From a candidate division WOR-3 bacterium (GTDB lineage Bacteria > Hydrothermota > Tepidihabitantia > SM23-42 > JAOAFX01): a stretch of 35,530 bases of DNA. Made by a program: the position numbers and the translations under genes. Positions 25,538-35,530 of the stretch are shown here, piece after piece. The notes under the pieces were generated by a model. It saw only the letters and a program-made list of their open reading frames with translations, was not told the DNA's origin and made no database searches. The stretch is from positions 1 to 35,530 of the forward strand of contig JBDRWD010000020.1 of the NCBI GenBank assembly GCA_039802205.1. Reading direction: 5' to 3'. Every line of letters begins with the position of its first letter. The first letter of the stretch is position 1.

Positions 25538-26335
25538 TTATGGTTTTTGTCCGATAAATAAGCCGCTGCCGACCTTGTGCTCATGGGCAGCCTTGCGCCA
25601 GATGGTGACAAGATTTTCTGCAAAATTATATAAGTCTTGACCAAAGTTCTTTAGAATCTCGGGCTTTAATTTACCTGTAACCATATTATAGTATTCATCG
25701 AAGTGTCGGGCAAATGCCTCGGTATTATCAATCGCCTCAAGAACCTTAAAGCCAACCTTCTTCATAAGCTCCTGATACCCTTCAAATGACTCCATATATG
25801 GAAATGCCATAGAGTCGTAGAGTGGCTCAAGTTCCTGGGGCGTGATTTTCCCGGTAATAATCCAGTCAGTAAATCCAATCTTGCCCCCAGGTTTCAATAC
25901 CCGATATGCCTCTCTTAATAGTCTTTCTTTGTCCGTTACATAGCACCAGGCCTCCTGTCCCCAGACGATATCTATTGAATTAGACTTAAATGGTAGGTCT
26001 AATACATTCCCTTCATAGTATTCAATCATATGGTCAAGTTTCGCTGCTTTGGTTCTTTCTATTGCCTTTTTGAGCATCGTCTTTGTCGCATCCACACCCT
26101 TCACATACACCCCGTACTTACTCGCCAGATGCCTTGCTGGCCCACCGAGCGCACTGCAAAGGTCAGCAACGACCATTCCTGGTTTTAAACCCAGTTTTTG
26201 TGCCAGGACATCGGTCGCTTCTGGTCCGCCGGAGTGAATCTGCTCCCCCATCACTGCCTCCCAGAGGAGACCGCCAGGACCATCATAGACATCCTGGACA
26301 TCTTTTATGGTATAGTCTTTTTTATAGATCTCCAT
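25538..26335 (-). CDS. SAM-dependent class I methyltransferase
   Basis: A 265-residue protein with motif I in the form VADLCSALGGPARHLA, KGVDAT as motif II and NVLDLPFKSNSIDIVWGQEAW as motif III, then LREAYRVLKPGGKIGFTD. It resembles small-molecule N- or S-methyltransferases of the sarcosine/dimethylglycine type; MGEQIHSGG near residue 30 is also typical of that group. The substrate is unknown. ATG at 26335 has AAAGGGGG before it; the ATG at 26350 overlaps the symporter stop (ATGA) and lacks a ribosome site. The position right after a symporter suggests it acts on the imported solute. Confidence 0.85.
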   Translation of the reverse strand: MEIYKKDYTIKDVQDVYDGPGGLLWEAVMGEQIHSGGPEATDVLAQKLGLKPGMVVADLCSALGGPARHLASKYGVYVKGVDATKTMLKKAIERTKAAKLDHMIEYYEGNVLDLPFKSNSIDIVWGQEAWCYVTDKERLLREAYRVLKPGGKIGFTDWIITGKITPQELEPLYDSMAFPYMESFEGYQELMKKVGFKVLEAIDNTEAFARHFDEYYNMVTGKLKPEILKNFGQDLYNFAENLVTIWRKAAHEHKVGSGLFIGQKP

Positions 26336-26346
26336 AATGCCCCCTT

Positions 26347-27909
26347 TCATTCTTTTGCAATATCAAATATTTCAACTCCTTCAAGTGGTTGAGGTGCTAC
26401 TACCTTTATTTCTTCGGGAGTTGAAGGTTTTCCTATCAAAGAGCCAACAATTAAACCAATGATCGAACCAACAAGTCCAATGATAATATAACCTAAATAT
26501 GTATCTGCAAGCCACTTTGGCGAATAATTGTGCTTCCAGATATGATATTCGAGAATATAGAATGCAACATTTCCGACAAATCCAAGGATTGAGCTTAATA
26601 TAATGCCTAAACGGTTAGCTTTTTTCCAAAATATTGCAAAAGCAGGTATTGCGATTGACGCAGTAAGAACACCAGATGAGAGGATATAAACATCCATTAA
26701 AGAAGTAGCATTGATAGCATAGACAAGCGCAAGCCCAATTGCAAATATTGATAACACTCTTGACCACCGGACAATTTTTTCGCGCGAAAGCCCTTTCATG
26801 AAATTTGGTTGAATTATGTCATAAGTAAGTGGAAGTGCAGTAACATTAGCAAAGGTATCTACCGTGGACATCTGGGCAGAGAGCAATCCCACGAGCATAA
26901 GAATCTGTGCCCAGAATGGAAAATATTGCAAAATGATAGCGGAGATGATGCCCGTCGCATCAGCACCGATTGCACTAGCACTTGACTCCAACCCTGGAGG
27001 AAAGAGAATGAGTGCACAAAAAGCAATGATTGTGGGGATTGTTATAACAAAGACAGTGATCAAAACAAGCGCAAGCCAGGCACCCTTCTTTGCTTCTTTT
27101 AAACTATTTGCCCCCTGAATTCTCAATAATAGATCTTGTTCAATCATCCACCCTGGAAGATATGCAAATAAAAGAATTATGGGCATCGCAATGCCACAGG
27201 CAAAAAGATTGAACATGGTATCTTTTCCATAATAAGGAGTGGGTGTATTCTTCAAAGTGCTGATAATATCTCCGTTTGTAATTGCCAAAGCTGCGTTAAT
27301 ACTAACTATACCCAATACCGTTATAAATATTGCCATAAATACGAATTGTAAAAAATCAGTAATCACTACCGCCCTGAATCCACCGAAATAGGTGTAGATC
27401 ATTATTGGAATTGCCACAATAATCATTGTCATTACTGGGGTTACCTTCAAAAACGGCGCCCCCAAATGCCCGACCATAAATAACTCCGCACCCGTCCAGG
27501 AAGTGAAGACGAAAATTGAACATAAACCGATTATTAAACGCGTTGGCCCCCCAAATCTTTTCTGAATAGCCTCGGGTAGAGAAATTGCTGGTAATCTACG
27601 CACAAAGGGAACCATTAAGATTATGATAAAACATAAAATAAACCACGGTAAGGGCAGTATCCATAAACCTGATAATCCCATCTGATATATCATAGACATT
27701 CCGTATCCCAACCAACCTAACATTAACCAACCTGCGGTTAAAGATATTGCTAAACGCCAGCCCGGAAAGCGTCTGCTTGCAATCCAGAAATCAAGGATTT
27801 GATGGGTAGCAGTATCTTTATGGATTTTCCGCCATATTACATAACCAATGATTATCACGAATAAAAAGTAGGCTATCGCTGCGAGCCAGAAATAAAAGCT
27901 CGCTGGCAC
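26347..27909 (-). CDS. Sodium:solute symporter (SSS family)
   Basis: A 520-residue inner-membrane protein with about 13 hydrophobic helices and SSS-family features: GWLMLGWLGYGMSMIYQMGLSG in the first core helix, SWTGAELFMVGHLGAP, the GGFRAVVITDFLQFVFM segment and LLSAQMSTVDTFANVTA with the Ser/Thr of the sodium site. It should drive uptake of an organic solute with Na+; the substrate is not predictable. The GTG start shares one base with the TAG of the barrel gene (TAGTG), with GGAGGTGAATA as ribosome site. Confidence 0.9.
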   Translation of the reverse strand: MPASFYFWLAAIAYFLFVIIIGYVIWRKIHKDTATHQILDFWIASRRFPGWRLAISLTAGWLMLGWLGYGMSMIYQMGLSGLWILPLPWFILCFIIILMVPFVRRLPAISLPEAIQKRFGGPTRLIIGLCSIFVFTSWTGAELFMVGHLGAPFLKVTPVMTMIIVAIPIMIYTYFGGFRAVVITDFLQFVFMAIFITVLGIVSINAALAITNGDIISTLKNTPTPYYGKDTMFNLFACGIAMPIILLFAYLPGWMIEQDLLLRIQGANSLKEAKKGAWLALVLITVFVITIPTIIAFCALILFPPGLESSASAIGADATGIISAIILQYFPFWAQILMLVGLLSAQMSTVDTFANVTALPLTYDIIQPNFMKGLSREKIVRWSRVLSIFAIGLALVYAINATSLMDVYILSSGVLTASIAIPAFAIFWKKANRLGIILSSILGFVGNVAFYILEYHIWKHNYSPKWLADTYLGYIIIGLVGSIIGLIVGSLIGKPSTPEEIKVVAPQPLEGVEIFDIAKE

Positions 27910-28685
27910 TATTCACCTCCGAATGAATACACGATACTCAGTCCGAACCCACCATGCAAGTTCTGGGTATTTGTAGAACTCTGGATATACTCTTTGAGTT
28001 CGGAATCAACAATTGCAGCAAAATTTATGTCTCCGGTAATGGTTAGGTATTTTGATAGATTCCCGGGTGGTATATAATTAATTTTTAACGTTGCTCCAAA
28101 ATCGGTTAGGCAGAACTTGTCCAGTCCGTAGTAGTAGGCATTATGTTTGCCATCTGCTAAACCGAGTGCCAGCGCAAGATTTGCACCAAGTGGGCCTAAA
28201 GAGAACCCTTTTGAAATAGAGGGAGAAATATATAACCCCTTTGCTTCTTTTATATCATAATTTAAAGTAAGGAGTCCTTGAACATAATTCAAATTGCCGT
28301 TAATTTTAAGATAAACTTCGCCCGTGGTTGGAAATGCTGAACCATAAGCAGACCCAGGATATGTATACAAAACAAAGCCTATAGTCGGCGTGACAGGACC
28401 TATAGCACGTGTATAATCAAGATAGAATGCCAAGTCGGTAATTTGAAATTGTTTTTGCTTTGTGTCCGTCAAATCAAGGGATCCCCAAGTGCAAAATGTA
28501 ATACCAGACCAGTTTATCCATAAGTCAGGCCAGAGCACGGGCTCGGTATTAAATACTGCCCCGCGCCATACATATTTGTTTCTCATCTGAAGATCTATCC
28601 CGATCATTGGCAGAACTGAAGAACTGCTCATGCCTGCCAATGTTAACAAGATAGCGATTGTATAGAGGGGTTTAATTCGGTTCAT
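27909..28685 (-). CDS. Outer-membrane porin-like protein (TorF-like)
   Basis: A 258-residue protein with a signal peptide and regular amphipathic strands ending in an aromatic strand (FGLSIVYSFGG). The start of the mature part, LQMRNKYVWRGAVFNTEPVLWPDL, resembles the xxNYVWRG segment of TorF/gcw_chp putative porins. It could be the outer-membrane entry for the solute taken up by the adjacent symporter. It lies two bases after the activator gene. Confidence 0.75.
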   Translation of the reverse strand: MNRIKPLYTIAILLTLAGMSSSSVLPMIGIDLQMRNKYVWRGAVFNTEPVLWPDLWINWSGITFCTWGSLDLTDTKQKQFQITDLAFYLDYTRAIGPVTPTIGFVLYTYPGSAYGSAFPTTGEVYLKINGNLNYVQGLLTLNYDIKEAKGLYISPSISKGFSLGPLGANLALALGLADGKHNAYYYGLDKFCLTDFGATLKINYIPPGNLSKYLTITGDINFAAIVDSELKEYIQSSTNTQNLHGGFGLSIVYSFGGE

Positions 28686-28687
28686 AT

Positions 28688-29458
28688 TTATCTCCTTTCT
28701 TTTATTGTCATTATTTCAAAATTTTTACCTGCAATTATTGCCGCGCCCAAGGCGCCGATTATCTGGGGCTCTTCAGGAACTAATATATCCCCCAGTTTTT
28801 TCTTCAGCAATTCAACCATACATTTATTCTTTGCCACACCACCGGCAAAGACAATCTTTTCTTCGGGATTCATTCTTGAAACCATGGTCATTACCCGGTT
28901 AATGATGGAATAGTGCAAACTCAACGCAATATCCTTCTTATCCTCGCCCCGAGCAATAAGAGATATTACTTCTGATTCTGCGAAGACCGTACACATTGAA
29001 TTTATTGGTATAGAGTTTCTGCCTTTCAGTGCTTCGCTACCAAAATCTTCTATTTTGTAGCCGAGTGTTTGTGCCATTACTTCAAGAAATTTGCCTGTTC
29101 CTGCTGCACAGCGGTCATTCATTTCAAAGTCTGCAACATTACCCTCTTTCACTTTTATCACCTTTGTATCCTGCCCCCCAATATCAATGATTGTCCGGCA
29201 ATCTGGGTAGAGAAAATAAGCACCAGTAGCATATGCCTTTATCTCGGTAACAATCGGACAATTATAATTTTCCTGCATCAGATATCTTCCATAACCAGTT
29301 GCAACAAGATGGTCAAATTTTTTCTCTTTTAATATTTCTTCAACTCTTTTTATTGGTTCCACAGTCGTATCGGTGATATGGTAATCCAAAATCTTATTAT
29401 TCTCAAGTGTCACCAATTTGATCGTCCTTGACCCGATATCAATCCCTGCAGCAACCAT
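28688..29458 (-). CDS. ASKHA-type activator (HgdC/BadF family, DCCP reductase)
   Basis: An ATP-hydrolysing iron-sulfur activator that injects one low-potential electron into a partner reductase. GIDIGSRTIKLV and IDIGGQDTKV are the phosphate-binding motifs of the ASKHA fold. C117 (DRCAAGTGKFLEV) and C156 (SMCTVFAESEVI) are 39 residues apart as in HgdC and would bind the [4Fe-4S] cluster bridging the homodimer. ATG at 29458 (MVAAGID) is preferred to TTG at 29467. It directly follows its predicted partner (29504-30781). Confidence 0.92.
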   Translation of the reverse strand: MVAAGIDIGSRTIKLVTLENNKILDYHITDTTVEPIKRVEEILKEKKFDHLVATGYGRYLMQENYNCPIVTEIKAYATGAYFLYPDCRTIIDIGGQDTKVIKVKEGNVADFEMNDRCAAGTGKFLEVMAQTLGYKIEDFGSEALKGRNSIPINSMCTVFAESEVISLIARGEDKKDIALSLHYSIINRVMTMVSRMNPEEKIVFAGGVAKNKCMVELLKKKLGDILVPEEPQIIGALGAAIIAGKNFEIMTIKERR

Positions 29459-29503
29459 TATCTTCAATCACCATTGTTGCCCTTAATTGCCTTTTATTAC
29501 CCA

Positions 29504-30781
29504 TTATTTCAATGTCTCTAAGAACGCCTCAATCCTCGTTCGTAGTTGTGCAGTATCTTCTTCTGAATAGTCCGTAACAATCTTCAAACTCGGAATATTA
29601 TCCTGTTTTAATGCGCCTTCAATTCTTATTGCTTCTATGTTATAGGTGTGGCAATACTGAAGTATGTATTGAACGACTCCTTTTACATTGCCTTCTTTTG
29701 CAAGACTTCTTGCCATATCAAGGCGGTCGTTATTCGGTGTAAAGCAGGAACAGTTTATCTTTAGGTAACGGTCAGCTATTGCACCAAGGAGTCCATCAAC
29801 ATCATTCGCCTTTGTATCAACAAGGTCCTTGAAATATTTCACACCGGTGCAGGTCTCATCAACTACTACCGCACCCCCTGAAGTTTCTATTAAAGAATGG
29901 ATCTTCCAGTTACCCATAACCGACGGGCAGCCAGAGACCATAATTCGTTTTGCCTTGTCTGAAAATGGTGAAATTCCTTTTTTGATTCTGTCCTCAAGTT
30001 CATCACACAATTCTTCAACCTTTTTCGTGAAACGCACCGGTTCATCATTCAATGCTGCCTGCATTACAACCAATGTATCAAGACCACTGATTGGTATCGG
30101 TTCTTTTATTCTCAATTTAGCTAACCGCTGGAGCGCCTTTCTCTTGTTATTCATTATTTCAATTTTTTCCTTTAGGACAGATGGATTTAGTTTCCTTTCT
30201 GCAAGTCTCTCGAGGTTCTCGGCCAATGAGTGGATCTCATTATCCCAGAGATGGAGATCGATCGCATTCTTTTTCTGGGGTAATTCCATAATATGGAAGT
30301 TTACCTTTTGCGCTAAAATATCCCAGACCTTCTTCTTCGCATCGCAGGTCGTCTCACCAACGGCAAGGCTCTTAATTGGTGCATAAGGGCAGGTTTTGGA
30401 GAATGCAAGTCCCAGAGTAGATTTCACAAGTGGACAGATATCCCTGGGTAGCATTTTTTCAGCATAAGGGACAGAAAAATTTGTGCCACCGCATAATGCA
30501 ATTGGCACTAAATCCAAAGCCATTATTACCTCTTCAGGAACATAGATACAGAAAAATCCGACAATCTTTTTGCCCTTGGATTTTTCTTCAATCAATTCTG
30601 CAATCCTGCCACCATGCGATTCGTGGAGCACATTGTCAAAATATTCCATTGTCTTGGGACGATTTTTTTGTTTGCCAACGGTATTTTGAAATCCTTTGTT
30701 AATATAGTCCAGCACCTCGTTGTGCAAATTTACATCAAGTCCTAATTCCTGCCACATTTTTTCGTAATTATTAACAGACAT
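29504..30781 (-). CDS. Double-cubane-cluster-type reductase (HgdB/BcrC family)
   Basis: A 425-residue single-subunit member of the 2-hydroxyacyl-CoA dehydratase/benzoyl-CoA reductase family. Conserved cysteines include C97 (IALCGG), C116 (DICPLVKS), C131 (KTCPYAP), C146 (GETTCDAKKK), a later SGCPSVMGNWK, DETCTG and INCSC. A lone subunit of this length next to an activator is the pattern of the double-cubane cluster protein, an ATP-driven reductase of small molecules with an [8Fe-9S] cluster. The physiological substrate of that family is unknown. ATG at 30781 with GAAAGGA is used rather than GTG at 30796. Confidence 0.88.
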   Translation of the reverse strand: MSVNNYEKMWQELGLDVNLHNEVLDYINKGFQNTVGKQKNRPKTMEYFDNVLHESHGGRIAELIEEKSKGKKIVGFFCIYVPEEVIMALDLVPIALCGGTNFSVPYAEKMLPRDICPLVKSTLGLAFSKTCPYAPIKSLAVGETTCDAKKKVWDILAQKVNFHIMELPQKKNAIDLHLWDNEIHSLAENLERLAERKLNPSVLKEKIEIMNNKRKALQRLAKLRIKEPIPISGLDTLVVMQAALNDEPVRFTKKVEELCDELEDRIKKGISPFSDKAKRIMVSGCPSVMGNWKIHSLIETSGGAVVVDETCTGVKYFKDLVDTKANDVDGLLGAIADRYLKINCSCFTPNNDRLDMARSLAKEGNVKGVVQYILQYCHTYNIEAIRIEGALKQDNIPSLKIVTDYSEEDTAQLRTRIEAFLETLK

Positions 30782-30805
30782 AAAAATTCCTTTCACCCTT
30801 ACCTA

Positions 30806-30845: not shown

Positions 30846-31148
30846 TCATTTTTTCTCCTTCTTAAAAAACAATTCGCAGAAACAATGTCCGTCCTTTTCC
30901 ACTTCTTCATCCAAAGTTGGGCAGGGGCAGAGCACATCATTTTTTAAATCAGGGGGGTCACTCTGTTTGCAGGGGCAATAGTATTTTCCATATTCAAGAT
31001 AATTCATGGTCATCAGACCGATCACCTTTTTTACCCGGCTTATCTTTTTATTAAAGACATAGCCTTTTTGACGGGCAACCTTGATTAGTCTTTCGTAGTT
31101 CTTATTATATTCTTTTGTTCCCACTATTTTATCCCATGGATTGGGCAT
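30846..31148 (-). CDS. Ferredoxin:thioredoxin reductase catalytic-chain-like protein
   Basis: A 100-residue protein with paired cysteines CPC (58-60), CPC (74-76) and CFC (89-91), the layout of the FTR catalytic chain, which uses a [4Fe-4S] cluster and a nearby disulfide to pass ferredoxin electrons to thioredoxin. The last pair is C-F-C preceded by His instead of the plant-type C-H-C, as in several anaerobe homologues. Its place right before the double-cubane-type reductase suggests electron delivery or thiol reduction for the same process. The start overlaps the leader ORF by 20 bases. Confidence 0.85.
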   Translation of the reverse strand: MPNPWDKIVGTKEYNKNYERLIKVARQKGYVFNKKISRVKKVIGLMTMNYLEYGKYYCPCKQSDPPDLKNDVLCPCPTLDEEVEKDGHCFCELFFKKEKK

Positions 31149-31377
31149 ATCGCCTCCTTGAAATATGATTATTGAGTTGTTGTTTAGAAAATGGTCTTGT
31201 TAAATAGTTAAATATGACCAATGTCCTAACCAAAATCCTTAGACTATGTTTCGCGATATATGAAACTGTGTAAGATAATTGGGAATTGTAAACTATCTGA
31301 TTGTTGTGAGATAAAACAGCGGTTAGTGGTTCTGCATTTTCATAGACCCGACCGGGTCTAAATACCCGGCGAGTCAT
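31129..31377 (-). CDS. Leader ORF A, MTRRxxRPGRV N-terminus, unknown function
   Basis: An 82-codon frame at the head of the 13-gene operon, starting with MTRRVFRPGRV and ending inside the FTR-like gene. AGGAGG lies six bases before the ATG at 31377, so translation is likely; the upstream ATG at 31383 has no spacing to that site. The first 33 bases match the starts of two ORFs at 35140 and 35250. The rest of the sequence is not similar to them and looks little like a folded protein. It may be a leader peptide or a by-product of a conserved RNA element. Confidence 0.5.
   Translation of the reverse strand: MTRRVFRPGRVYENAEPLTAVLSHNNQIVYNSQLSYTVSYIAKHSLRILVRTLVIFNYLTRPFSKQQLNNHISRRRYAQSMG
31345..31377 (-). 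repeat. 33-base leader repeat, copy A
   Basis: On the minus strand it starts at the ATG and contains two overlapping stems: CCGGGT/ACCCGG around ATTTAG, and GACCCG/CGGGTC around GT. They share ACCCG and so exclude each other. Copies B and C differ at a few positions. Confidence 0.8.
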
Positions 31378-31429
31378 TTCCATCCTCCTTTACGGAACCG
31401 GAAAAGGCAAGACATAAAAATCATACTTA

Positions 31430-31457
31430 AATATAAATAAAAAATTTTGTTTGTCAA
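31430..31457 (-). promoter_or_regulatory. Promoter of the 13-gene redox operon
   Basis: Minus strand TTGACA (31457-31452), 16 bases, TATATT (31435-31430). The predicted leader is about 45 bases to the ATG of leader ORF A. This is the only strong promoter seen for genes from 31377 to 20828. Confidence 0.75.
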
Positions 31458-31467
31458 CTATGTGACA
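31452..31467. promoter_or_regulatory. Candidate operator overlapping the -35 box
   Basis: Imperfect palindrome TGTCA-N6-TGACA, resembling CRP/FNR-type or other dimeric regulator sites, overlapping the TTGACA box of the redox operon promoter. A 12-base perfect palindrome, AGACTTAAGTCT, lies just upstream at 31483-31494. Confidence 0.4.
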
Positions 31468-31552
31468 GGGAGTTTAAATCAAAGACTTAAGTCTAAAAAC
31501 GAAAACATATCACATCTACTTTATCTCTTTACAGCCGTTCTACATAATTGCC

Positions 31553-32299
31553 CTAATTATTCAATTTTACTACGATAGCCTGAACTACCTCCTTATTTAC
31601 TAAATTCTGAACAAAGGCGACTATATTTAATTTATTTGCATTCCAATTTGATTGCAAAACAAAATTTGTTTCTTTTATTATCGAATCCGGATATACAGGA
31701 TTGATTTCGATACCTTTTTCATCGGGGATCATCTTACGCATAACAAAATGAAATATTGAATCGGGCGCACCGGTCTGTTTAAAATAGACGCTATCTTCGG
31801 TAAGTGCTATATATAATTTGTAATCAGATGAGAAAATTGAATCAACCGGAACAATTTTAACCTTAAGCGAGACCGTATTTCCTTCTATTTCCTTTGCAAG
31901 ACCCAGACGTAAACAAGTTTTCTTACCTCTTTCACTTGTGATATAATTTTTATAGGTTGGGTAATCATCTTCAGGTTTCTCAGTCTGGACATTGTAAAGA
32001 CCATCAAATACCACAATCGGAGATGTTTGGATTGAATATAACGATTCTCTCACAGCCACATAGGCAGGACTTAGAGTATCACCCAACAGTCGCCGATGGT
32101 AGGCAATGACCGCTATACTGTCCTTGAATTCTTTCGCTAAACTATCCAAGGCTTCTTCCGCATAAGGACAATAAGTGCAGCGGGCAAAGGTAAAAAATTC
32201 GGCAAGGACAATTCTATTTGCCGGTTCAATTTTAATCTGAGGGGATTCTGAACATAGGGTAAATAATAGTATACTACTTAATATGATTATTCTTTTCAT
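31553..32299 (-). CDS. Omp28/thioredoxin-fold lipoprotein
   Basis: A 248-residue lipoprotein (cysteine 16 in FTLC) with a thioredoxin-like start VLAEFFTFARCTYCPYAEEALDSL, giving a C41-x-x-C44 redox motif, and VIAYHRRL and PIVVFDGL as further fold elements. It matches Omp28-related proteins of Bacteroidetes-like bacteria. It is paralogous to the N-terminal part of the 596-residue protein encoded two genes upstream. The start overlaps the preceding stop by four bases. Probably a periplasmic or surface thiol-disulfide protein. Confidence 0.8.
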   Translation of the reverse strand: MKRIIILSSILLFTLCSESPQIKIEPANRIVLAEFFTFARCTYCPYAEEALDSLAKEFKDSIAVIAYHRRLLGDTLSPAYVAVRESLYSIQTSPIVVFDGLYNVQTEKPEDDYPTYKNYITSERGKKTCLRLGLAKEIEGNTVSLKVKIVPVDSIFSSDYKLYIALTEDSVYFKQTGAPDSIFHFVMRKMIPDEKGIEINPVYPDSIIKETNFVLQSNWNANKLNIVAFVQNLVNKEVVQAIVVKLNN

Positions 32300-33033
32300 T
32301 TTACCTTAACCACCTTTCGGCAAATTTTATTTTCGCCGTTTTTTACTTCAATAAAGTAAATCCCTTCAGGAACCGATCGATCAAAATTATCATCTCCTGA
32401 CCAGATGATACATGATTCACGGTTCACGATACCCGATACCGGAATAAAAGATTTCACAACTCGACCGGAAATGTCATACACCGTTAATGAAACTTCGGAT
32501 TTCGGATTTAGAAATGCGGATTTGTTTAGATTTTTTAATTTAATTAAACATTGATCACGGAATGGATTGGGGGACACTTCAAATTTAAAGGGTTGACTTA
32601 TGAGTTTCTCTCCCTGGATTCCCTGTTCCATTGCCGCATAGACATTTATAGAGTCTCTTAAATCTGGATTGTGAATTGACCAGACTTTCAGATTCACGAC
32701 CTCTGTTCCCCATACATTGGGCATTGTATATATTGATATATCAATTCCAGTATCAACTGCTCCAGGGGTTAGATAATCATAAAGTATTATCCCAGGCTCT
32801 GCGCACTGTCCACCTGCGCAGTATATTTCAAACCATCCCGGCACACTATCAATTACGCGACAATCAAAGGCATAACTATCAGGCTGGGAGCCGGTATTAG
32901 TGAGACGGAAATAATAGACAAAATAATCAGTACCGGTCTGGAATGTATCGCTTGTGCAGACAAAATTAAAATTATATTGAGCAGATAATGGAAAAGTGAC
33001 CATCAATGATAAAATCAAAATTTTTATTCGCAT
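32296..33033 (-). CDS. Secreted protein with T9SS type A-like C-terminus
   Basis: A 245-residue protein with a signal peptide (ILILSLMVTFPLSAQ), a beta-sandwich-like middle (YYFRLTNTGSQPDSYAFDCRV) and a Por-type sorting tail: FEVSPNPFRDQCLI, LTVYDISGRVVKSF, SVPEGIYFIEV and CRKVVKVK. The middle resembles domains that describe intact polypeptide backbones in secreted proteins; no catalytic motif is seen. It is co-transcribed with the two Omp28-like genes. Confidence 0.8.
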   Translation of the reverse strand: MRIKILILSLMVTFPLSAQYNFNFVCTSDTFQTGTDYFVYYFRLTNTGSQPDSYAFDCRVIDSVPGWFEIYCAGGQCAEPGIILYDYLTPGAVDTGIDISIYTMPNVWGTEVVNLKVWSIHNPDLRDSINVYAAMEQGIQGEKLISQPFKFEVSPNPFRDQCLIKLKNLNKSAFLNPKSEVSLTVYDISGRVVKSFIPVSGIVNRESCIIWSGDDNFDRSVPEGIYFIEVKNGENKICRKVVKVK

Positions 33034-33046
33034 ACTTTCTCCTTTT

Positions 33047-33078
33047 TAACGGGGGAGGATAGAATTCCTCCCCCGTTA
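33047..33078. repeat. 13-bp GC hairpin after Omp28-T9SS gene
   Basis: Perfect arms TAACGGGGGAGGA and TCCTCCCCCGTTA with a 6-base loop. In the transcription direction (minus) it is followed by AAAAAGGAG, not by T, so it is an intercistronic hairpin next to the ribosome site of the following gene rather than a terminator for this operon. Confidence 0.85.
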
Positions 33079-33090
33079 TTTATAATGCAG

Positions 33091-34881
33091 TTAACGGACG
33101 ATGATGACTTTCTGTATAATCTTCGTATTTTCACTTTCCGATTTCGCAAAGTATATCCCGGAGGGCAAAAGTTTACCATCGTTATCGTCGCCAATCCAGA
33201 AATTGGTCGATTTTAAATCCAGTGATTTGACTAAGCGACCAGAGGCGTCATAAATATTGAGCGTCGTTGATTTATTGGGAGATTCTTGGGATTTGTATTC
33301 AATTATTGTCCGATCGCAGAAAGGATTAGGATTGATACTCAATATCACCGGCTTTCCACTATCTTTTACTTCATTAATGCCAACCGGAGTCGGAATATTC
33401 ACATCATCAATATACCAGCCTTCGTCAACAACACTCCCATCGCTTAAGAATCTAAACCTCAATCTTATCGTCTGACCGGCAAATTGTTGTAAGGAATAGG
33501 TATATTGAGTCCAAGAAGCCTGGTTACCGGTGAATACACCGATTGTCTTCCAGAAACCTGATCCATTATCAATATCTAAGTGTCCATAATCCCAGCCCTG
33601 CTCCATACGATATTGATGCCAGAAATACAGATTGCTATCCGGGGTTGCAACAAAATATGGGCTTACCAATGATGCATCGTTTTCATTTGTATACTGCCAT
33701 GAATTTTCTACTCCACAGTACCAGGAATGGGTTGGTGAATGACTCTTATAAGTTGTGATATGCCAATTATCGTTGATACCCGAATGTATCCAGTTCCCTT
33801 GTCCGGATTCAATATTATCTGAGAAACCCGGGGTTCTTGTTACTATAAACGGGAAGGTATCTGAATGAGTTCCAAAATTCACAATGAATGATACCTGTCT
33901 TGGAGACGGGCAAGTCGAACTAATTGTGAAATTGCAGATATTAACCGTATCCACATCACCCGGACCAATCGCGACCGATTGAGGTGTTGCACTGCTGATC
34001 GTAATATAAGGATCAGAGCAGGTGACATTTGCGCTGCCTGAGTAAATACCGTTACCCTGATTCTTACCAAAGACATACATCCTTATTGCTTCACCGGGTT
34101 CTGCCCAGCGATTATTATTCCCGCTTGTCTCTTGATATTTTAATCCATAATACTCCATATCCGGTATCGGCACTATCCCAATCTCTGCGCCCTGATATAT
34201 TTCTCTTGTTGAAGATTGGACAAAGACGACAATCTTGCAATCCTTTTCTTTCCAAGAAGTGGCAATTGTGAAATTCCTTGAGCGGGTGATGCTACTATTT
34301 GCCGGAATTGTCACTCCTTCACCATTCTGGTCGGGTAGCATATCCCTCATTACAAAATCAAGTTTGGTCATTCCCTGCCAGTTATAAGGAATATTATTTT
34401 CAACAATGACAAAATGTAGTGTCCCGCTGATTGCACTTGAGGTTGTATTCTGGATTGTAGCATTAACGGTTCCGGTGTTTGCAACTGTATCATAAGAACA
34501 GGTAAGGTCAATAACGAGCGGACTTGCTACAGTTAGGCGATACTTAACGGTATCGAGGAAACAGGCATAAAGTGTGCCGGTATGGATGCCCCCCACGACT
34601 CTTTTTACACCATCAAATATCGTCGTGGGATAACCTGAGACACTGTAGTAACTTAACCGTGCTGCAGCCTCAGATGAATAAAATGGATCGCTTGTTGAGG
34701 GATGGTATGCTATCACAACAACTGAATCATAACTCCTTTCATATATTTCGTCCAGCGCACGCGCTGCCCCTGGACAATATGTACACCAGGTTGCGGTAAA
34801 CTCTTCACAAACCACAACCCGCTGGGCAGCAAAGGACAATATTCCTACGCTTATCCCAATTAATAGCGCTAGTTTTTTCAT
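33091..34881 (-). CDS. Secreted Omp28-like protein with jelly-roll domain and T9SS tail
   Basis: A 596-residue protein with a signal peptide (LALLIGISVGILSFAAQ), a thioredoxin-like Omp28 domain with C33-x-x-C36 (TATWCTYCPGA) and FDGVKRVVGG, an Ig/CARDB-like linker (EPGEAIRMYVFGKNQGNG), a MAM/jelly-roll-like module (GHLDIDNGSGFWKTIG to EGWYIDDVNIP) and a Por sorting tail (LSINPNPFCDRTIIEY, LNIYDASGRLVKSL, LPSGIYFAKS, QKVIIVR). It should be exported and anchored at the surface. It heads the structural genes of its operon; its start lies inside leader ORF B. Confidence 0.85.
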   Translation of the reverse strand: MKKLALLIGISVGILSFAAQRVVVCEEFTATWCTYCPGAARALDEIYERSYDSVVVIAYHPSTSDPFYSSEAAARLSYYSVSGYPTTIFDGVKRVVGGIHTGTLYACFLDTVKYRLTVASPLVIDLTCSYDTVANTGTVNATIQNTTSSAISGTLHFVIVENNIPYNWQGMTKLDFVMRDMLPDQNGEGVTIPANSSITRSRNFTIATSWKEKDCKIVVFVQSSTREIYQGAEIGIVPIPDMEYYGLKYQETSGNNNRWAEPGEAIRMYVFGKNQGNGIYSGSANVTCSDPYITISSATPQSVAIGPGDVDTVNICNFTISSTCPSPRQVSFIVNFGTHSDTFPFIVTRTPGFSDNIESGQGNWIHSGINDNWHITTYKSHSPTHSWYCGVENSWQYTNENDASLVSPYFVATPDSNLYFWHQYRMEQGWDYGHLDIDNGSGFWKTIGVFTGNQASWTQYTYSLQQFAGQTIRLRFRFLSDGSVVDEGWYIDDVNIPTPVGINEVKDSGKPVILSINPNPFCDRTIIEYKSQESPNKSTTLNIYDASGRLVKSLDLKSTNFWIGDDNDGKLLPSGIYFAKSESENTKIIQKVIIVR

Positions 34882-35140
34882 TTTGACCCCCTTTCATTTC
34901 TATTAGCGCTTTTAGCAATAATATTTTCCTCCTCTTCTCACCTCCTTTCGGCATTTTTTCTTTTTGATGATTGGAATATTCAACAATTTTCCAGATTGCC
35001 TTATTATTTCTTGAATATTCTCTAAGGAGATTCGCAAAAACTTCCTTTAAGGTGTGCTCTGTAATTATCGGGGTTTGAATTGAATGAAATTTGAGGAATT
35101 CTTCTCGGACCCGACCGGGTCTCCAAGTCCGGCGAGTCAT
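34805..35140 (-). CDS. Leader ORF B, MTRRTWRPGRV N-terminus, unknown function
   Basis: A 111-codon frame that starts with MTRRTWRPGRV behind GGGAGGGGTCAA, overlaps leader ORF C by four bases (ATGA) and runs 77 bases into the Omp28-like gene. The product is basic and helical in pattern. The coupling and good ribosome site suggest it is translated; whether the protein has a function is unknown. Confidence 0.5.
   Translation of the reverse strand: MTRRTWRPGRVREEFLKFHSIQTPIITEHTLKEVFANLLREYSRNNKAIWKIVEYSNHQKEKMPKGGEKRRKILLLKALIEMKGGQNEKTSAINWDKRRNIVLCCPAGCGL
35108..35140 (-). repeat. 33-base leader repeat, copy B
   Basis: Same element as at 31345-31377, with ACTTGG in place of GTATTT, so the first stem is weaker while GACCCG/CGGGTC is kept. 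Confidence 0.8.
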
Positions 35141-35250
35141 TTGACCCCTCCCTGAAAATCATTTGCCAAAAAGTGGTTGATTATTGTGTTAAAATGAGCA
35201 ACGGAATATTGTTTCTGGACCCGACCGGGCCTAAATACCCGGCGCGTCAT
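35137..35250 (-). CDS. Leader ORF C, MTRRVFRPGRV N-terminus, 37 residues
   Basis: A 37-residue frame too short for most gene finders. ATG at 35250 follows AGGGGGTAGAAA, and the TGA overlaps the ATG of leader ORF B. It is the first frame behind the promoter at 35298-35325. After MTRRVFRPGRV the peptide shows no known motif. Confidence 0.5.
   Translation of the reverse strand: MTRRVFRPGRVQKQYSVAHFNTIINHFLANDFQGGVK
35218..35250 (-). repeat. 33-base leader repeat, copy C
   Basis: Third copy. Compared with copy A it differs only at ACT/ACG and AGA/AGG, both synonymous, and keeps both stems (one pair becomes G-T). Confidence 0.8.
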
Positions 35251-35297
35251 TTTCTACCCCCTGGGTAATTGACTACAACAGGCTTGAGCATATTCTA

Positions 35298-35325
35298 ATT
35301 ATACTTATTCTATTGAAAATGTCAA
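35298..35325 (-). promoter_or_regulatory. Promoter of Omp28/T9SS operon
   Basis: Perfect TTGACA (35325-35320), 16 bases, TATAAT (35303-35298) on the minus strand, about 48 bases before leader ORF C. Confidence 0.8.
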
Positions 35326-35400: not shown

Positions 35401-35429
35401 TTGAAAACATAGGCACCCCTGGATATATT
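35401..35429 (+). promoter_or_regulatory. Promoter of right-edge gene
   Basis: TTGAAA (35401-35406), 17 bases, TATATT (35424-35429). An imperfect inverted repeat TAGGCACCCCT / AGGAGTGCCTA with an inner GGATA/TATCC covers 35410-35450 and overlaps the promoter; it may be part of an element end. Confidence 0.5.
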
Positions 35430-35448
35430 CTATCCGAAAGGAGTGCCT

Positions 35449-35530
35449 ATGATTTGCATAGACATTCCGGAGGAAGTATATACCATGAAAGCCAAAAGGT
35501 CAATAATTAAATCAAATGCCGAGCGCTATC
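35449..35530 (+). CDS. Start of a probable transposase/integrase gene, partial
   Basis: ATG at 35449 follows GAAAGGAG and opens a frame running off the window (MICIDIPEEVYTMKAKRSII, then KSNAERY). The KAKRSIIKxNAxRY segment recalls the N-terminus of DDE integrase-type transposases (IS481/ISNCY-like), but only 27 residues are visible, so this is a weak call. The inverted repeat just upstream is consistent with an insertion-sequence edge. Confidence 0.4.
   Translation, partial: MICIDIPEEVYTMKAKRSIIKSNAERY

Follow-up and report, generated by a model that had tools for sequence, protein, structure and literature searches.

Why should the same short element stand at the heads of two different operons in a bacterial genome, each time at the beginning of a small open reading frame (ORF)? 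The question is raised by a 35,530-nucleotide stretch of DNA from a candidate division WOR-3 bacterium (assembly GCA_039802205.1, contig JBDRWD010000020.1, positions 1 to 35,530; here called the window), in which copies of a 33-base element lie at 31345-31377, 35108-35140 and 35218-35250, all on the minus strand. The three copies, 78-87% identical to a reference copy over 45 nt, had been recognised in a first-pass annotation; they are indeed present and non-randomly placed, and they are the sole matches when the 2.65-Mb genome is scanned with up to three mismatches (a reversed control pattern gives 0). The frame in which that annotation read them was mistaken, however, and it missed the key fact: one base over from its ORFs lies a UGA codon that is very probably read as selenocysteine (Sec). 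It is proposed here, with a probability of roughly 0.78, that the element belongs to a Sec-gated termination-restart leader which controls a selenium-starvation regulon.

The conserved core of the element consists of TGA, 16 nt and a hairpin with a GGTC loop. A gap-free alignment of 39 copies leaves TGA and CGGTCG (the loop with its closing pair) invariant, while the stem varies yet remains paired, as in GGACAC-GGTC-GTGTCC, CGGGCTC-GGTC-GAGCCCG and GAGGTT-GGGTC-AACCTC. Over the five upper stem pairs 95% of cells are paired as compared with 14-51% in slid versions, and 22 cells are altered on both sides of the stem as compared with 6.6 in shuffles, counts that are not independent as the sequences are related and the genomes were counted separately. 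The GGUC loop begins 21 nt after the UGA, against 19 nt in fdhF of E. coli, and bacterial selenocysteine insertion sequences (SECIS) are built in this way, a GGUC hairpin following a UGA at a fixed short distance, so that UGA and hairpin are read together as a Sec site. The frame of the UGA is open through the hairpin, with at least 11 codons after the UGA in 29/29 leaders, and a conserved guanosine in the loop is a named feature of bacterial SECIS elements (PMC2398784). The identification as a bacterial-type SECIS behind a predicted Sec codon is well supported. In E. coli the SECIS recruits SelB with Sec-tRNA (PMC4513850); the element resembles the fdhF type in its UGA followed by a GGUC-loop hairpin about 20 nt on, and differs from it in that a very short leader ORF, overlapped by an RTG codon, takes the place of an enzyme gene. 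Internal support that such hairpins act as SECIS in these organisms is provided by SelD, which scores over its family cut-off in 23/27 genomes of the order, nearly always with an in-frame TGA: most UGA-bearing SelD genes contain a hairpin whose AGUU loop lies at nt 23 after the UGA, and the AGUU loop recurs in the second leader element of several genomes. The peptide MTRRxxRPGRV, previously regarded as the conserved unit, is a by-product because the encoded residues vary as the hairpin covaries, the same place encoding LGRV, HGRV, LGRA or LGQP elsewhere. The comparison of covariation with synonymous change that the annotation had recommended accordingly brings out covariation in the stem and no conservation of the peptide in the frame of the start codons.

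The UGA is contained in a short frame, ORF1, which in most leaders starts 6-7 nt after a TTGACA-16-TATAAT-like promoter. Since the start is so near the -10 box, the transcript is probably leaderless or nearly so. ORF1 contains one UGA, reached after 12-17 codons (13 in most leaders), and the Sec frame then stops 11-28 codons after the UGA, always about 90-400 nt upstream of the target start. In 38/39 copies the leader TGA is preceded by A or G and in one by T, which creates an overlapping ATG, GTG or TTG; before the UGA of SelD and of the Omp28 selenoproteins discussed below the base is mostly T or C. The median open length of the +1 frame from the RTG is 48 codons, that of the Sec frame 21 and that of the third frame 4. 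Where a leader has two elements, the +1 frame from the first RTG reaches the second UGA; in 23/28 leaders the final restart ORF ends no more than 30 nt from the start codon of the target, often as TAATG or ATGA. Because the frame it opens extends as far as the following UGA or the start of the gene, the RTG is probably a real restart codon. The start codons originally placed at the element are therefore probably genuine, with the qualification that they overlap the UGA (RTGA) and are not the conserved core; the ribosome sites before them are also present, as Shine-Dalgarno-like GGNGG, and double as Gly-Gly codons of ORF1 in the other frame. In G017, TAA stands in place of UGA #2 and the hairpin behind it has decayed, but the overlapping ATG is kept, as is the coupled frame that leads to the ferredoxin-thioredoxin reductase (FTR) gene; the predicted checkpoint is lost here and the predicted hand-over retained.

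A mechanism can be inferred from the UGA/SECIS anatomy, the covariation, the arrangement of the frames, the Sec machinery found in most carriers and the Cys and Sec isoforms, all of which are read from sequence: Sec would be inserted at the leader UGAs, translation would restart at the RTG codons, and the leader would be off when Sec is available and on when it is not. The ribosome would start on ORF1 at or near the 5' end of the mRNA and meet the UGA after its 12-17 codons. With SelB and Sec-tRNA the UGA would be decoded, and the ribosome would keep frame 1 and terminate in the leader, so that the gene is not reached. In E. coli SECIS-directed recoding depends on selenium, and RF2 terminates those ribosomes which fail to insert Sec (PMC4513850). 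In the leaders, release at the UGA would leave the ribosome on the overlapping RTG with GGNGG close upstream, where it would restart in the +1 frame and move through the hairpin to a second UGA/SECIS checkpoint or to the start of the target gene, which would be translated by coupling from the restart ORF. Two checkpoints in series would sharpen the response.

The window contains a two-element and a one-element leader, both on the minus strand. The promoter of the former comprises the -35 box TTGACA (35320-35325) and the -10 box TATAAT (35298-35303), which together match the consensus at 12/12 positions with a spacer of 16. ORF1 (35181-35291) starts 6 nt after the -10 box, again probably giving a leaderless transcript, and has 14 codons before the UGA; with UGA as Sec it would encode MLKPVVVNYPGGRK-U-RAGYLGPVGSRNNIPLLILTQ. 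UGA #1 (35247-35249), a predicted Sec codon, is overlapped by ATG 35248-35250 and followed by the predicted SECIS stem-loop GGCCCGGTCGGGTC (35218-35231). From this ATG a restart ORF of 37 aa, MTRRVFRPGRV... (35137-35250), leads to UGA #2 (35137-35139), likewise a predicted Sec codon, which is overlapped by ATG 35138-35140 and followed by the stem-loop GACCCGGTCGGGTC (35108-35121). The second restart ORF of 111 aa (34805-35140) crosses the start of the target gene Omp28 (33091-34881; PF11551), a Sec-free form with Cys in a CxYC motif whose paralogs elsewhere have UGA, and the operon continues with a Por_Secre_tail protein (32296-33033) and a second Omp28, also a Cys form (31553-32299). The FTR leader is preceded by the boxes TTGACA (31452-31457) and TATATT (31430-31435), and its ORF1 (31323-31424), (MIF)MSCLFRFRKGGWK-U-LAGYLDPVGSMKMQNH, starts either at an ATG 16 codons before the UGA, 5 nt after the -10 box, or 13 codons before it (31415). 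The predicted Sec codon (31374-31376) is overlapped by ATG 31375-31377 and followed by the stem-loop GACCCGGTCGGGTC (31345-31358), and the restart ORF of 82 aa (31129-31377) overlaps the start codon of the gene for the FTR catalytic chain (30846-31148; PF02943) by 20 nt. The next gene encodes a double-cubane-cluster reductase (HGD-D; 29504-30796; PF06050, NF040772), and the rest of the operon (25538-29467) a BadF-type activase, Gcw_chp, an SSF transporter and a methyltransferase. All three TGAs belong to the invariant triplet and all three stems to the covarying set.

Across the carriers the targets of the leaders are FTR, Omp28 and corrinoid/URO-D/double-cubane operons ending in selA-selB. 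In G012 the leader is followed by FTR, HGD-D, BadF, a methyltransferase, a B12-binding protein and URO-D, and then by two HGD-D-like proteins, a further URO-D, BadF, SelA and SelB; in G016 it heads a double-cubane reductase, BadF, SelA and SelB, with SelD just upstream. selA-selB stand behind the leader in these two genomes and not in the window. According to the proposed mechanism Sec-free Omp28, FTR, the corrinoid/URO-D methyl-transfer genes and selA-selB would turn on in selenium starvation. The distribution of isoforms is consistent with this polarity: an in-frame UGA is found in 0/8 Omp28 genes of operons behind a leader, which encode Cys forms, and in 29/31 of the other Omp28 copies of the same genomes (Fisher p 7e-7). 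In eight aligned UGA-bearing Omp28 loci the UGA coincides with, or directly adjoins, the position at which the leader-controlled form has the first Cys of its CxYC motif, and in most of them a SECIS-like hairpin lies downstream. The Omp28-like proteins with U-x-x-C, their UGA beside a conserved Cys, make up an apparent selenoprotein family that is represented many times in each genome (examples among L210-L217 are G012:C2:182290-182991 and G000:C7:9298-9969), and no paper that names Omp28 as a selenoprotein was found in the open literature searched. Sec paralogs of the double-cubane reductase were also sought; there is no close relative with a UGA, and one distant match with UGA (G001:C11) has 27% identity.

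Among the rival explanations it is unlikely that the short ORFs encode genuine small selenoproteins of about 30-40 aa with a GG-x-K-U motif, which would work with the downstream enzymes, the overlaps being ordinary operon packing. The codons before the UGA are under purifying selection in one genus, where codons 5-13 of ORF1 differ by 54 synonymous and 18 nonsynonymous codon changes as compared with ratios of 6:59 and 6:65 in the other two frames, and a GGxKU-like motif recurs in the ORF1 products. However, the residues after U track the hairpin (DPVGS, GSVES, DTVVS) and are not conserved as a peptide, those before U differ among genera, and the overlapping RTG, the coupled +1 frames and the Sec/Cys split of the targets would be left unexplained.

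A little less probable still is a reading in which SelB with Sec-tRNA, bound to the hairpin, sterically blocks ribosomes or restart, the decoding of the UGA being secondary. The selAB element of E. coli binds SelB without a decoded UGA. Autoregulation of selAB by SelB through this SECIS RNA (Thanbichler and Boeck 2002, as cited in PMC8124441) would have a counterpart in the SECIS hairpins heading the selA-selB operons of G012 and G016, where feedback on the Sec machinery is conceivable. For binding alone, however, the invariant UGA and a Sec frame that stays open across the hairpin in every leader would be superfluous; unlike E. coli selAB, the leaders conserve UGA, restart codon and coupled frames, and their targets include genes other than sel.

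It is very improbable that the hairpin is an attenuator unrelated to selenium, controlled by protein or RNA, or a DNA operator, with the RTG frames as regulatory leader peptides, a possibility raised by the first-pass annotation. The core is palindromic, and two mutually exclusive stems, which that annotation likened to those of attenuators, are present in the window's family with 5-6 of 6 pairs; in most other genomes 2-5 of 6 pairs remain, so that this feature is mostly not retained. The leader region of the minus strand contains no terminator-like site and each ORF1 offers a single UGA in place of several regulatory codons in a row. The stem letters moreover covary while UGA and loop stay, and such a device would not account for the Sec/Cys split of Omp28. 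The exclusive-stem attenuator was therefore rejected, and so was a transcription-factor palindrome, considered for the Rrf2-like gene upstream in G013, as the stem letters covary and the position relative to the UGA is fixed.

The proposed Sec-gated leader recurs at corresponding operon heads. Three copies are found in each of two genomes of the same genus and two in one genome of the same family, upstream of related genes (FTR and Omp28, with G003 having the element before the double-cubane reductase operon, which follows FTR in the window). With the FTR gene as anchor, 65 genomes of the class were compared for upstream leaders, and throughout most of the order the 100-aa FTR is preceded by a single short ORF or a pair of them, every such ORF showing RTG, about 17 nt and a hairpin; in G018 the corresponding region (L088) is stored as a run of N, in which the element cannot be judged. 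A covariance model search added copies, separated from noise by a clear score gap, including sites before Omp28, double-cubane and methyltransferase/corrinoid operons. The arrangement is kept across one order of candidate division WOR-3, all named carriers being WOR-3 genomes. A scan of 84,980 species gave a single match outside WOR-3, on a marine Oceanicola contig and probably due to chance, the pattern representing the CCC-type stem only, so that other stems in other phyla may have escaped; viral contigs gave no match to the element. The earlier view of a regulatory leader is borne out by the corresponding operon heads in related genomes, and the search of genome and relatives that it called for finds few copies, not scattered relative to genes. 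A mobile palindrome of the REP type, with many dispersed copies unrelated to gene starts, is dismissed on the same grounds (about 3 copies per genome, at corresponding operon heads). In G013 a gene for an Rrf2-type regulator, its identity read from sequence, is located directly upstream of the FTR leader (L023:1828-2232, minus strand).

SelB scores above cut-off in the window's genome and in every carrier save two incomplete ones, and both this genome and most carriers contain tRNA-Sec, with scores of 57-80 bits. The SelD of the order is itself a selenoprotein, with the motif CAGUASK or CPGUASK, or AAGUAAK in a second form (L176-L198), and several genomes have a second gene for a 100-aa FTR immediately before selD.

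Several observations, in addition to the non-independence of the covariation and other counts, speak against a Sec-gated switch. SelB was not found in the incomplete carriers G019 and G022, nor tRNA-Sec in the carriers G016, G017, G019, G021 and G022. A search of Rfam returned no family at the gathering threshold and no SECIS at a relaxed one. Folding predictions for the window's family place at the energy minimum a longer stem in which the GGUC loop is buried; its 5' arm would be covered by a ribosome standing at the UGA, which would free the SECIS. Finally, the restart ORF of the window's own Omp28 leader ends 74 nt inside the gene, the chain of G016 stops 144 nt short of the gene, and that of G019 is broken.

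In trpL and hisL attenuation a ribosome on a leader ORF measures the supply of charged tRNA. The proposed switch would sense charged tRNA in the same way, and differs in that one stop codon would be either decoded or used for termination and restart, and in that no terminator hairpin was found. In prfB (RF2) autoregulation the fate of the ribosome at an early UGA sets expression. For iraD it is coupling from a short upstream ORF that does so (PMC5574718). The leaders would share these features and differ from both in the involvement of Sec and a SECIS. In Methanococcus maripaludis Cys isoforms increase under selenium depletion, as does an SdmABC-like locus for corrinoid methyltransfer that carries the annotation of uroporphyrinogen decarboxylases, and the Sec/Cys switch (HrsM) is transcriptional via a LysR-type repressor, with the sensing step stated to be unknown (PMC11097638). 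Cys isoforms and corrinoid methyltransfer genes are also among the proposed starvation targets here, whereas the sensor would be in cis and translational. It is reasonably likely that such a stop/sense recoding switch is a categorically new cis-regulator, in which charged Sec-tRNA is gauged by what happens to ribosomes at a UGA or a pair of UGAs, and those that do not decode are passed on, one RTG restart after another, to Sec-free isoenzymes, genes that scavenge selenium and the Sec machinery itself; no description of a Sec-gated switch of this kind was found in the open papers searched. How cells sense selenium is an open question that the switch would address: if the proposal is correct, the decoding event itself would be a direct genetic selenium sensor readable from the DNA, and the leader pattern could be used to find selenium-responsive operons in other genomes. 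The analysis also exposes the apparent Omp28 selenoprotein family, and illustrates that routine gene calling can be led astray by UGA, by SD-like codons and by overlapping frames.

Elsewhere in the window a 17-nt inverted repeat (88% complementary; 35404-35455) flanks the beginning of a divergent ORF, which is truncated at the contig end.

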